Below, in pieces: positions 21,772 to 26,586 of a stretch of 34,476 bases of DNA. The notes under the pieces are model-generated. The model was not told the DNA's origin and did not search any database. It saw only the letters and a list, made by a program, of their open reading frames with translations. Position 1 is the first letter of the stretch. Each line of letters begins with the position of its first letter. The stretch is from Kofleriaceae bacterium (lineage in GTDB: Bacteria; Myxococcota_A; Polyangia; Haliangiales; Haliangiaceae): assembly GCA_018058095.1 (NCBI GenBank), contig JAGPCO010000079.1:1-34476 (forward strand), in the 5' to 3' direction. The translations under genes and the position numbers were made by a program.

Positions 21772-21835
21772 CACCGGCAGGACCGCCGCCGCCGATGCGC
21801 GATCGAGCGGCGCGGCGGCCATGGTATGGACGGCC

Positions 21836-23533
21836 ATGCGCTGCGTCCGCTGCCTCGTCGCTCCGACCTCCACGCTCGGCCTGCTCGTCCTCGCCGCCAC
21901 CGGCCTCGGCTGCGGCGGCGACGATGACGCGCCGCCGCCGACCGGGCCGATCGACGCCCGCGTCGATCACTACGACTACCGCATCGACCTGGCGACCCGG
22001 CGCGCCAGCGTGGTCATCACCGCCACCGTGGTCACCGCCGGCGACTGCCTGACCCTGCCCTTCCGCGGCGACGACCTCGGCGCCGACGTCACCATCAACG
22101 GCGCCCCTGCCGGGGGTGAGGTCGGCGGCGGCCAGCTCACGCTGTGCGGCGACGGCTACCCGGCCGGCACCACGCTCACGCTCGGCGCCAGCATGACGGT
22201 GCCAGCGACGACGTGGGGCCCGACCCAGGTCGGCTTCTCGACCACCACCGACCGCGCCGGCAACGACTTCGTGTACCTGGTGTCGTGGGTCGGCGGCTGC
22301 GACCGCCACGGCGCCTGCGACAACCGGCCCGATCAGTTCGCGCGCTACCGCTTCACCGTCGATCACCCCGAGGCGCTGACCGTGCGTTGCCCGGGCGACG
22401 TGACCGAGCCGAGCCCGACCCAGACCGTGTGTGCGTTCGAGCACGACGGCGGCCCGACCTACAGCACCTTCGGCATCGTCGCCAGCAGCGGCTGGACCAC
22501 GACCGACAAGGGCCTGTGGGACGGCGTCGCCACCACGGTGTACGACCGCACCGGCAGCGGCGTGGCCGGACGCATCGACCCGGTCTACCACGGCGGCATG
22601 ATGGCCTTCATGTCGTCGACGTTCGGGCCGTACCCGTACGGCGACGAGCTGCGCCTCCTGACCGGGCCGACCTACTGGAACGGCTTCGAGCACCCCGGCA
22701 ACATCGTCCTGTCCGACGCCCTGGCCAACCCGCTGTCGGGCTCGGCCTACCGCGATCCGGTCGCGCACACGCTCGACCACGAGCTGGCCCACCTGTGGGC
22801 CGGCGATCAGACGACGCTGGCCGGCACCTACGACTTCGTGTGGAAGGAGGCCATGGCCGAGTACCTCAGCTACCTGCACGAGGACAGCGTCGACCCGGCG
22901 GTGGCGCTGGCGACGGCGCGGGCGTGGAAGCTGTTCTCGCGCGGCGTGCTGGCCTACCCGGTGCCGGGCGAGCGCCCGCCGCTGGTCGACTACTACGGCG
23001 ACGTGTACGGGCCCGGGCCGATGGTGCTGTTCCGCCAGCTCGAGGTGCTGTCGTCGCGGGCCCAGGTCATCGCCGCGCTGCAGGCGCTGCTGGGCCAGGC
23101 GCGCGCCATCGGCGTGGCCGACGTGACGGCGGCGCTGGCGAGCGCGACCGGGCTCGACCTCACCGCCTACGTCGCGGCCTGGGTCACGGGCGAAGGCCCG
23201 CCGGTGTGGCCGGAGTTCACCGCCGTGTTCACGCCGGGCGCCACCGCCGGCAGCCCGGGCTCGCTCCAGGTCGACCAGACCAACGCGGCCGCGACCGGCG
23301 ACAAGCGCTGCCGCTTCAAGATCGGCCTCGAGGGCGCGGACACCGCGCAGAACGTCAAGGTGGTGATCGACACCGTGGCCGGTGGCCCGAGCCAGACCCT
23401 GGTCGTGCCCGATCCCGGCTTCGCGGTGGTGCGCACGGTCATCGACCCAGACGCCGAGTGCCTGGCCTTCCCGACGGCGTCGACCCTGGTGCGCGCGCCG
23501 AGGCCACAGCCGTGGGTGGCGCCGGCGCGCTGA
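21836..23533 (+). CDS. M1-type (gluzincin) metallopeptidase lipoprotein
   Basis: 565 residues if started at the second ATG (21836), which places MRCVRC before the hydrophobic core and the lipobox ATGLGC; the ATG at 21821 adds five residues. The zinc site is HELAH (His315, His319) with Glu338 exactly 18 residues after the second His, the M1 signature HExxH-x18-E. GFEHPGNIV stands in the place of the GxMEN exopeptidase motif. Tyr in VYGPGPMVLF may be the catalytic Tyr. An N-terminal beta domain (residues 35-180) and a C-terminal beta-sandwich (from about 455) surround the catalytic part. The GAMEN change (Phe-Glu-His) suggests altered substrate choice. A cell-surface peptidase is likely. Confidence 0.87.
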   Translation: MRCVRCLVAPTSTLGLLVLAATGLGCGGDDDAPPPTGPIDARVDHYDYRIDLATRRASVVITATVVTAGDCLTLPFRGDDLGADVTINGAPAGGEVGGGQLTLCGDGYPAGTTLTLGASMTVPATTWGPTQVGFSTTTDRAGNDFVYLVSWVGGCDRHGACDNRPDQFARYRFTVDHPEALTVRCPGDVTEPSPTQTVCAFEHDGGPTYSTFGIVASSGWTTTDKGLWDGVATTVYDRTGSGVAGRIDPVYHGGMMAFMSSTFGPYPYGDELRLLTGPTYWNGFEHPGNIVLSDALANPLSGSAYRDPVAHTLDHELAHLWAGDQTTLAGTYDFVWKEAMAEYLSYLHEDSVDPAVALATARAWKLFSRGVLAYPVPGERPPLVDYYGDVYGPGPMVLFRQLEVLSSRAQVIAALQALLGQARAIGVADVTAALASATGLDLTAYVAAWVTGEGPPVWPEFTAVFTPGATAGSPGSLQVDQTNAAATGDKRCRFKIGLEGADTAQNVKVVIDTVAGGPSQTLVVPDPGFAVVRTVIDPDAECLAFPTASTLVRAPRPQPWVAPAR

Positions 23534-23647: not shown

Positions 23648-23653
23648 GGAGGA
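23648..23653 (+). promoter_or_regulatory. Strong ribosome binding site GGAGGA
   Basis: GGAGGA lies 8 bases before the ATG at 23662. It is the clearest Shine-Dalgarno sequence in the window and fixes the start of the cysteine-repeat lipoprotein. Confidence 0.85.
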
Positions 23654-23661
23654 CTAATCGC

Positions 23662-24684
23662 ATGCGTTTGCTCTCGTCTCGTAGCCTCGTCCCGGCCCTC
23701 GCCGCCGCCGCCGCCCTCGTCGCCCTCACCGGTTGCCCCAAGGGCATCCCCGGTCGCGGCGGCTCGGGCAAGGTCGACCCCAACTCGTGCGGCAACTACG
23801 CCGTGTCCGACGCCGGCCGCAAGCTCAAGGCGTTCTTCGAGGCCACCGTCAAGCTCAACGACACCGTCGTCGAGACCGAGCAGGTGGTGAAGACCAGCTG
23901 CAAGATGATGGGGACCGAGCTGGGCATGGCCCCGGGCGACCTCGAGGGCACCACCAACGACGTGTGCGCCCGCGTGATCACCACCATCCGCGACAACCTC
24001 AAGGTGTCGATCAAGGGTGAGGCCGGCCTCAAGGTCGACTACAAGCCGGCGGTCTGCACCGTCGACATCCAGGCCACCGCCCGCGCCGCCGCCGAGTGCG
24101 AGGCCAAGGCCGAGGCCGACATCGCCGTCCGCTGCGAGGGCAGCTGCACCGGCACCTGCAGCGGCGCGTGCGACGGCACCTGCCACGCCGAGGGCGGCAC
24201 CGGCGGCTCGAGCGGCCAGTGCAACGGCCACTGCGAGGGTTCGTGCGGCGGCACCTGCTCGGGTGGCTGCGACGGCCACGCCGACGTCGAGGCGTCGGCG
24301 CAGTGCAAGGCGCAGGCTGAGGTCAACGCCTCGGTCGACGTGCAGTGCACCGAGGCCGAGCTCAACATCGAGGCCAAGGCCGACGTGATCGTCGACGCCA
24401 GCAAGGCGGAGATGACCATCAAGGCCCTCAAGGCCGGCCTGCCGAAGATCCTCAGCGTCAAGGCCCGCCTCAAGCCGCTCAAGGCCGCGGTGGCGACCTG
24501 GGCCCGCTCGGCCAAGGAGCTGGGTGAGTCGGCCAGCGACCTGGCCGGTTCGTTCAAGGACCAGGCGCTGTGCATCTCCGGCCAGATCGCCGGCGCCGCC
24601 GCCATGGTCGCCAACATCCAGGCGTCGGTCGACGTCTCGGTGTCGGTGTCCGTCGAGGCCTCGGCCTCGGCTGGCGTGAACTGA
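23662..24684 (+). CDS. Lipoprotein with two blocks of five evenly spaced cysteines
   Basis: 340 residues. The lipobox is VALTGCPKG (Cys25). An Ala/Lys/Asp-rich helical part follows (residues 45-155). Residues 158-203 contain Cys at 158, 162, 166, 170, 174 and again at 187, 191, 195, 199, 203, each three residues apart (CEGSCTGTCSGACDGTC and CNGHCEGSCGGTCSGGC), separated by a 12-residue Gly/Ser/His linker. The C-terminal third is again helical, with AEASVDV-like repeats (ASVDVSVSVSVEASASAGVN). With a strong ribosome site and a strong terminator it looks like an abundantly made envelope protein. The repeats could bind metal or form a stack of disulfides. No known family was recognised. Confidence 0.85.
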   Translation: MRLLSSRSLVPALAAAAALVALTGCPKGIPGRGGSGKVDPNSCGNYAVSDAGRKLKAFFEATVKLNDTVVETEQVVKTSCKMMGTELGMAPGDLEGTTNDVCARVITTIRDNLKVSIKGEAGLKVDYKPAVCTVDIQATARAAAECEAKAEADIAVRCEGSCTGTCSGACDGTCHAEGGTGGSSGQCNGHCEGSCGGTCSGGCDGHADVEASAQCKAQAEVNASVDVQCTEAELNIEAKADVIVDASKAEMTIKALKAGLPKILSVKARLKPLKAAVATWARSAKELGESASDLAGSFKDQALCISGQIAGAAAMVANIQASVDVSVSVSVEASASAGVN

Positions 24685-24708
24685 CCTCGGTTCGCCCGGA
24701 CCACCGCC

Positions 24709-24749
24709 GCGGGGAGCTGGCCACCGGCCACGCTCCCCGCGCGCGTTTT
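24709..24749 (+). terminator. Strong intrinsic terminator
   Basis: GCGGGGAGC (24709-24717) pairs perfectly with GCTCCCCGC (24732-24740), with inner TGGCC/GGCCA also pairing, followed by GCGCG and TTTT. It lies 25 bases after the cysteine-repeat lipoprotein stop. Confidence 0.85.
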
Positions 24750-24915: not shown

Positions 24916-26586
24916 ATGGTCCGCGTCCGCCCCGTTCGCTCCCTGCCCTGGCTGCTCGCCGCGCTGTCGCTCCCCGCGTGTGGTGGCAGCGTGCGCCGGA
25001 ACCTCATCTTCGATCAGCAGGTCCGCCTCGGCCACGGCCGCTTCGTCGGCCCGATCGAGGTCGACGTGCCGCGCCGGGCCGATCACCAGGAGCGCGACTT
25101 CGAGATCGTGGCCGAGCTGACCACCGGCTGCACACCACAGCTGACGCTGGTCTTCCCCGACGGCGAGACCCGCCCGATCGGGGCGGCCGATGCGAGCTGG
25201 CAGGACCTGCTGGCGCGCCGCGCCGCCGCCCCCGAGCCGGCCGCCGTGGCCGCGCCGGCTGCGCCGGCGACGAGCAGCCCCGACGCCGCGAGCGACAGCG
25301 TCGCGGCCGAGGCCGCCATCACCCCGGCCGGCCCTGGCGTGGTCGCCGCCGCCCCGGTCGCGACCGGGCGATGGCAGGCGGTCACGACCGAGTCGTGGCC
25401 GGGCCAGCTGCAGTTCCAGGCCGAGCGTGAGCGCCGGTGCGCCGGCGAGCGCACCTACCGCCTGCGCTACGTCAGCGCGCTCGACGAGCGCGGCGCGATC
25501 GGGGTGTGGGCCGAGGTGCCGCAGGAGCTGGCCGAGGCCCGGCTGCGCCTGCGCGTGTTCGAGCTGATCGACGCCGGCGCCGAGGCCGAGGTGGCGGCCG
25601 AGCGCGAGGCCGAGCGGACCCGGCTCGCGGCCGCCGCGCAGGCCGAGGCCGAGCAGCGGGCCCGGGCCCAGGCCCAGGTGACGATCAACGCCGAGGTGGC
25701 GGCCCGGCCGCGGCCACCCGAGCCACCGCCGAAGACCGAGCGGCCGCGCCCGGCCAAGGTCGAGGGCGCGCGCTGGGTGCCGGGGCGGTGGAGCTACGCC
25801 GAGGGCGCCGGCCGCTGGGTCTGGATCGACGGGCAGTGGGCGGCGCCGGCCGATCGCCCGCCGCTGCGGGCCGAGGGTGGCACGCCGCCGGTGCCTGGCG
25901 CCCGCTGGGCCACCGGCCACTGGGAGTGGCAGGCCGGCCCCGGCGCGTGGAGCTGGAGCCCGGGCCACTGGGAGGCGCCGCCGCCGCGGATCGAGCAGCC
26001 CGGGCCGCCGCCGATCGCCGGTCAACCGTGGTTGCCCGGCCGCTGGCTCGCCGTCGGCGCCAGCTTCCAGTGGGAAGCCGGGCGCTGGGGCGCGCCGCCG
26101 GCCAAGGTCGAGCTGCCCGGGGTGCCACCGGTGCCCGAGTCGGCGTGGGTCGCCGGCTACTGGGTCGAGGGCGCCGGCGGCTTCTCGTGGGTCGCCGGCC
26201 ACTGGGGTCGGCCGACGCCGCGGGCCGAGACGCCGCCGCCGTCACCTGGGCGCGGCGCGCGCTGGATCGCTGGCACCTGGATCCAGAACGCCGGCACCTG
26301 GGTGTGGTCGCCGGGGTTCTACGACGTCGCCGGTCGGCCGCCGCCGCCGCCGCGACGCGAGCAGCCGGGCGCGGCGCCGGTCGCCGGCGCGGTGTGGCTG
26401 GCCGGGTTCTGGCGCTGGTCACCGGCGCAGAGCCGGCACGACTGGGTGGCCGGGCACTGGGAGACGCCGCCCGGCGTGGGCTACGAGTGGGTGTGGGACG
26501 CGGCCCCGATCGCCGGCGGTGGACGGACCGGGCGCTGGCTGCTGCGGGTCGACGTCCGGGTCGACGTGCGCGGGGGCCGGCGATGA
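24916..26586 (+). CDS. YXWGXW-repeat lipoprotein
   Basis: 556 residues from the ATG at 24916; an in-frame GTG at 24844 would put 24 non-signal residues in front. The signal peptide ends in LSLPACGGS. Residues 20-240 hold a beta-rich part, an Ala-rich stretch and a Glu/Ala/Arg coiled-coil-like region (EREAERTRLAAAAQAEAE). From about residue 280 there are six tandem repeats of roughly 40 residues with W.PG.W, a Trp-rich core such as GAWSWSPGHWE and a Pro-rich linker (WVPGRWSY, WATGHWEW, WLPGRW, WVAGYW, WIAGTW, WLAGFW). This fits the YXWGXW repeat family of exported proteins. Its stop overlaps the next gene start by 4 bases. The repeats may bind glycans or pack as a beta structure on the cell surface. 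Confidence 0.87.
   Translation: MVRVRPVRSLPWLLAALSLPACGGSVRRNLIFDQQVRLGHGRFVGPIEVDVPRRADHQERDFEIVAELTTGCTPQLTLVFPDGETRPIGAADASWQDLLARRAAAPEPAAVAAPAAPATSSPDAASDSVAAEAAITPAGPGVVAAAPVATGRWQAVTTESWPGQLQFQAERERRCAGERTYRLRYVSALDERGAIGVWAEVPQELAEARLRLRVFELIDAGAEAEVAAEREAERTRLAAAAQAEAEQRARAQAQVTINAEVAARPRPPEPPPKTERPRPAKVEGARWVPGRWSYAEGAGRWVWIDGQWAAPADRPPLRAEGGTPPVPGARWATGHWEWQAGPGAWSWSPGHWEAPPPRIEQPGPPPIAGQPWLPGRWLAVGASFQWEAGRWGAPPAKVELPGVPPVPESAWVAGYWVEGAGGFSWVAGHWGRPTPRAETPPPSPGRGARWIAGTWIQNAGTWVWSPGFYDVAGRPPPPPRREQPGAAPVAGAVWLAGFWRWSPAQSRHDWVAGHWETPPGVGYEWVWDAAPIAGGGRTGRWLLRVDVRVDVRGGRR

Follow-up and report, generated by a model that had tools for sequence, protein, structure and literature searches.

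A myxobacterial lipoprotein family with mirror-symmetric cysteine blocks that could fold into disulfide-stapled hairpins of variable length

The window (the whole analysed stretch of 34,476 nucleotides from a Kofleriaceae bacterium) encodes a 340-aa lipoprotein, P0001, in which the Cys residues from C132 to C229 are arranged as a palindrome: the spacings 14-12-4-4-4-4-[13]-4-4-4-4-12-14 mirror each other about residue 180.5. P0001 is probably an outer-envelope lipoprotein with an antiparallel beta-hairpin core that is zipped by cross-strand disulfides, and it may act as a rigid spike or spacer. That the two arms pair in antiparallel fashion is considered highly likely, as are the disulfides once that pairing is granted; the role as a rigid spike or spacer is proposed more tentatively. 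About evenly balanced is the wider reading, in which P0001 represents an undescribed myxobacterial family of length-tunable surface spikes, each made of one beta-hairpin held together by as many as 19 disulfides in a stack, with rungs gained and lost on both strands together. We infer that the pairs are oxidised, that the protein is located in the outer membrane or on the surface and that its role is structural.

P0001 was accepted as a real gene because of its third-position GC of 0.962 (0.625/0.531/0.962 by codon position) and its 16 homologues in genome contigs. The homologues are 53-63% identical to P0001 in alignment, and their contigs are labelled Myxococcales, Kofleriaceae, delta-proteobacteria and, once, Proteobacteria. 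The lipoprotein assignment of the original prediction was borne out by the signal peptide and the lipobox LTGC at residue 25. The features of the locus are as follows.

21821..23533, + strand: upstream neighbour, a lipoprotein with a Peptidase_M1 profile match (29.6 bits) and HELAH
23648..23652, + strand: GGAGG, likely ribosome-binding site 9 nt 5' of the ATG (sequence)
23662..24684, + strand: whole gene for P0001, the lipoprotein with the mirror-symmetric Cys block (sequence, alignment, palindrome test)
23662..23736, + strand: signal peptide and lipobox with the lipid-anchor Cys25 (sequence; Cys25 invariant in 17 aligned rows)
23809..24009, + strand: predicted N-terminal helical segment, residues 50-116 (AlphaFold2, pLDDT mostly 66-92 by ten-residue block)
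24055..24183, + strand: arm 1, residues 132-174, Cys 132/146/158/162/166/170/174 (Cys count, alternation, palindrome test)
24184..24219, + strand: putative tip loop, residues 175-186, Gly/Ser-rich (sequence pairing analysis)
24220..24348, + strand: arm 2, residues 187-229, Cys 187/191/195/199/203/215/229, arm 1 mirrored (Cys count, alternation, palindrome test)
24397..24624, + strand: predicted C-terminal helical segment, residues 246-321, with conserved Cys304 (AlphaFold2, pLDDT about 52-85; alignment)
24613..24681, + strand: conserved tail of alternating Val/Ser, then Ala/Ser, residues 318-340 (alignment)
24705..24749, + strand: probable terminator, a stable GC hairpin followed by TTTT, 3' of the stop codon (folding, z = -3.9)

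The hairpin at 24705..24749 was absent from the terminator list of a consensus scanner. The M1-peptidase-like lipoprotein lies directly upstream in 16/16 orthologue loci. It was not seen at 20 divergent family loci, where no conserved neighbour of any kind was found with a crude gene caller that missed the family gene itself in some cases (e.g. L167, L168, L170), and it was on that account rejected as a part of the mechanism; none of the neighbours points to a specific role. The downstream gene (24919-26586) encodes WXXGXW repeats (PF12779); the searched flanks of the orthologues did not contain it.

The original prediction had described two five-Cys ladders at 4-residue spacing, and these stand exactly at the positions given there (158/162/166/170/174 and 187/191/195/199/203). 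As a description of the pattern they are incomplete, since C132, C146, C215 and C229 also belong to it and the whole is one 14-Cys palindrome. The two ladders are thus halves of one structure, mirroring each other. The chance of a palindrome when the spacings of the P0001 block were shuffled was 10^-3.1.

The symmetry is kept among the relatives. In the 17-sequence alignment 15 sequences carry four-plus-four ladder Cys and two (P0001 and L008) five-plus-five, with no case of unequal numbers; the number of Cys following the lipid Cys is even in 17/17. The genome encodes a second copy (L002, 41% identity), again five-plus-five. A profile search of the phylum revealed the family in 82/377 sampled genomes, 81 of these 82 matches falling in the class of P0001 or nearer; within the order it was found in 32/35 genomes. 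In the match from another class (G293) there is a 43-residue SGRC repeat but nothing else of the protein, and it was discarded as spurious. No protein-level relative was found in the plasmid records or viral contigs searched.

The palindrome was tested on n=143 distinct ORFs, drawn from many, not all, of the listed profile matches. Of these, 134 were required to be 150 aa or longer, to show four or more 4-residue spacings and to contain the stretch C-x-G-x-C-x-G-x-C, and the other 9 are ladder-poor relatives; L076, whose ORF is without the block, was left out before counting. Each block was taken to extend over all consecutive Cys around the ladder that lie no more than 21 residues apart, a definition independent of symmetry. 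An exact palindrome was present in 127/143 ORFs and a palindrome within one residue in another 9/143, in a set whose members are kin (87/132 domains were left at a crude 70% identity cut). Of the 7 non-palindromic ORFs, three run off an end of the DNA (L074, L075 and one from L147), three have mirrored arms with two extra Cys in the loop (L138, L150 and a second one from L147), and L069 has a single extra Cys in one arm. The extra tip-loop Cys of L138, L147 and L150 occur at spacings 3, 5 and 11 and could form a loop disulfide.

The exactly palindromic blocks are of 38 different kinds, from 4 to 38 Cys, and the longest reads 14 6 4 9 4 4 4 6 10 4 4 9 4 4 8 4 4 4 [10] followed by the reverse. 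With shuffled spacings the chance of symmetry over the 38 blocks ranged from 10^-0.5 (smallest block) to 10^-10.6. Ladder-poor members are still symmetric (14-17-14, 14-21-14, 14-12-10-12-14), and both odd and even rung numbers occur among the relatives. In some of them steps of 8 or 9 residues interrupt the ladder well within each arm, which a single deletion at the tip cannot explain. A tree of 139 rows, built by a quick method from the sequence outside the Cys block and with many weak branches, requires at least 31 changes in arm architecture among 130 exactly symmetric rows. Because the arms were cut at the mirror end in the tree analysis, so that equal rung numbers are there partly by construction, whereas the block definition of the palindrome test does without the mirror, it is the palindrome test that is relied on.

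Viral contigs served as the control. They were scanned for five Cys in C-x-G-x-C spacing (at least 120 loci), ladder ORFs longer than 60 aa were counted, and blocks made of fours throughout were excluded as trivially symmetric. A mixed-spacing palindrome occurred in 0/83 viral ladder ORFs among the matches listed, so a Cys ladder alone does not bring the mirror with it. Very long C-x3-C arrays, of up to about 90 Cys and with no mirror, were noticed in the viral contigs L277, L233 and L267; the tested pieces of L277 and L233 match TIGR04114 and phrog_6085.

The positional mirror cannot come from duplication, since inverted repeats do not exist in proteins, and antiparallel pairing of the arms is therefore its natural cause. 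A four-residue spacing suits strands, not a long straight helix pair. Pairing of residue i with 361-i sets Cys opposite Cys in P0001. The Cys-side face of arm 1 reads C V I A A A A C A A A I V C G C G C G C G C and that of arm 2 C V V A V A A C A A V A G C G C G C G C G C; small or apolar residues alternate with polar ones in a strict two-residue pattern in both arms, the opposite face being polar. Across the family the C-x3-C units (n=1108) have G at their middle position in 84% and A in 15%. The long Ala-rich helices that had been expected to flank the ladders were not upheld: the strict alternation runs there, AlphaFold2 places strands there (at low confidence), and the predicted helices lie further out.

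The full-length AlphaFold2 model (mean pLDDT 57, pTM 0.48), made from 17 sequences only, places residues 50-116 and 246-335 in helices and draws 123-145 and 216-238 as strands in near-mirror positions. It draws the tail, which is strand-like in sequence, as helix up to residue 335 with pLDDT 33-56 by block. In the hairpin-only model the strands 118-128/233-243, 132-136/225-229, 156-162/203-209 and 165-175/185-200 lie nearly as mirror images about 180.5, at low confidence (mean pLDDT 53, pTM 0.32). Weak as these models are, their antiparallel strands agree with the mirror register, which they do not prove. Comparison with PDB folds gave only chance-level matches for the full model and none for the hairpin model. 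The charge complementarity of mirrored pairs was not significant (178/362 opposite = 0.492 vs 0.474 in the swap null, sd 0.016), and the whole-set charge score at a shift of -2 (0.523) was above that of the true register (0.482).

In the proposed mechanism P0001 would be exported and then lipid-anchored at Cys25. Residues about 132-229, perhaps 118-243, would form one long antiparallel beta-hairpin with a seven-rung cystine ladder (132-229, 146-215, 158-203, 162-199, 166-195, 170-191 and 174-187), and relatives would carry 2 to 19 rungs by the same mirror pairing. Each C-x-[GA]-x-C unit would place Cys and Gly/Ala on one side and polar residues on the other, and the two flanking helical segments could serve as a base near the membrane. 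With a strand rise of 0.33 nm per residue, the 43 residues of an arm would give a protease-resistant, rigid rod of about 14 nm when fully extended, with the Gly/Ser loop at its tip and a length tuned by gain or loss of rungs on both arms together.

The original prediction had listed disulfides, metal binding and a filament side by side. Disulfides are favoured here, as pairs between the two ladders. They are likely because P0001 has a signal peptide and a lipobox, the Cys count is even (17/17) and the genome contains 11 DSBA-family matches over the cut-off; VKOR was not found in the genome. The hairpin has some observations against it. Many relatives have odd spacings (9, 13), at which the ladder would change face unless the strands bulge, and nine ORFs are off by one residue. 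The exposed Cys-Gly-Ala face of a two-stranded ribbon would also need a partner surface, and none was identified.

In an antiparallel intermolecular ribbon the Cys blocks of two molecules would pair with each other, linking them by disulfides into a dimer or filament. This arrangement calls for the same palindrome, because the mirror also follows from a two-fold symmetric antiparallel dimer, and packing between molecules could involve the apolar small-residue face and the alternating tail. The centre of L064 is C-x3-C, which would be a very tight loop for a hairpin. In nearly all members, however, the centre is a Gly/Ser/Thr/Asn-rich stretch with a spacing of 8 to 21, as a turn would be, and the ribbon is considered unlikely. 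The same low probability is given to self-assembly into a functional amyloid or a surface filament, with the hairpins stacked through the Val/Ser tail and the flat face of Cys, Gly and Ala. The flat small-residue face and the conserved alternating tail would suit it; a lipid anchor on each copy favours single spikes, and the bactofilin matches in 3/10 relatives are weak, sub-cutoff and look compositional. These bactofilin matches lie over the Cys block of L131, L144 and L146 and probably reflect repeated strand-like composition.

Slightly less probable still is binding of metal or Cu(I), either metallothionein-like or in the manner of copper storage proteins whose helices carry rows of C-x3-C. 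It would account for the many cysteines, and very weak fold matches to a Streptomyces copper storage protein were obtained (E 4.5 and above). The Gly in the middle of 84% of the C-x3-C units is poor for a helix, the whole-arm mirror would be unneeded in a storage protein, rung numbers are odd as well as even, there is no Pfam match, and the protein is exported to a probably oxidising compartment. The mirror and the mixture of odd and even rungs thus weaken the metal option of the original prediction.

Very improbable is a radical SAM target with thioether-modified Cys, as the name of the NCBIfam model TIGR04114 (tSAM_targ_Cxxx) suggests: P0001 scores 15.5 bits against the curated cut-off of 20 and one of ten relatives exceeds it (L131, 29.3), but TIGR04115 (rSAM_Cxxx_rpt) has no match in the own genome and is over its cut-off in 0/15 genomes with family members, no neighbour is conserved across the 20 divergent loci, and TIGR04114 is an 18-position repeat model that tracks composition, because it also matches the Cys arrays of viral contigs. 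Sub-cutoff TIGR04115 matches were present in 12/15 family genomes, similarly to other radical SAM proteins in control genomes. A genome search with TIGR04114 gave no match in any genome, controls included, and so does not bear on this reading.

P0001 has no Pfam match and no PDB match by sequence, and the ten relatives gave Pfam matches only below cut-off. A match of the hairpin profile to ribosomal protein L29 among PDB sequences (E 0.003) is Ala/Lys-rich and was rejected as compositional. The statement that no characterised family has this layout stands as far as Pfam and PDB are concerned and has to be qualified by the existence of a Cys-repeat model, TIGR04114, albeit sub-cutoff here. A literature search by title and abstract start, with subscription papers mostly outside it, returned no paper describing the family. 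The mirror-Cys lipoprotein family is undescribed in the literature and databases searched.

If the hairpin reading is true, the family would be a natural cystine-ladder hairpin far larger than the small animal peptides, and the disulfide map of each member could be read rung by rung from the sequence alone. It would offer a test case for predicting disulfide pairing from spacing symmetry and add a new kind of surface element to a bacterial group noted for its contact-dependent behaviour; rigid nanorods of genetically tuned length could be modelled on it.

Among known systems, copper storage proteins (Csp) differ from P0001, which has no Pfam match, fold matches to them only at E 4.5 and above, and a Gly-rich ladder in place of their helical bundle. 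The TIGR04114 model shares with P0001 the Cys at every fourth residue and does so without a mirror requirement; P0001 lies below its cut-off and the named radical SAM partner was not found over cut-off. The viral C-x3-C arrays of the phrog_6085 type are long rows like that of P0001 (a weak match, 20.9 bits), but no mirror was seen in their mixed-spacing ladder ORFs among the matches listed. TIGR04201, the name for the TraA Cys-rich repeat (PMC3325183), was not among the NCBIfam matches of P0001 up to E = 1. TraA of Myxococcus is a cell-surface protein with a Cys-rich region for which its authors put forward the hypothesis of a stalk; its tandem repeats of about 20 residues are of another kind than the P0001 ladder (PMC6372800). 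The green-algal HAP2 protein has a cystine-ladder-like motif with parallel disulfides in a surface insertion and is unlike P0001 in that it has three disulfides within a 37-residue loop and is described as evocative of EGF-like motifs (PMC6327110).

The closest precedents are the beta-hairpin cystine-ladder peptides (tachyplesin, polyphemusin and gomesin), with which the family shares mirror-spaced Cys on two arms. Theta-defensins are also cystine-ladder hairpin peptides, with closer Cys spacing. Tachyplesin-I (Cys3-Cys16/Cys7-Cys12) and gomesin (Cys2-Cys15/Cys6-Cys11) have four-spaced cross-strand disulfides between antiparallel strands, i.e. the same pairing as proposed here with two rungs (PMC10053013), and tachyplesins have 17 or 18 residues and two disulfides (PMC13001179). 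They are short, free, cationic animal peptides, whereas P0001 is a 340-aa bacterial lipoprotein from a family with 2-19 mirrored pairs and Gly/Ala between the Cys. The cross-strand cystine ladder is thus known from tiny peptides, and its proposed scale here is, as far as found, unprecedented.
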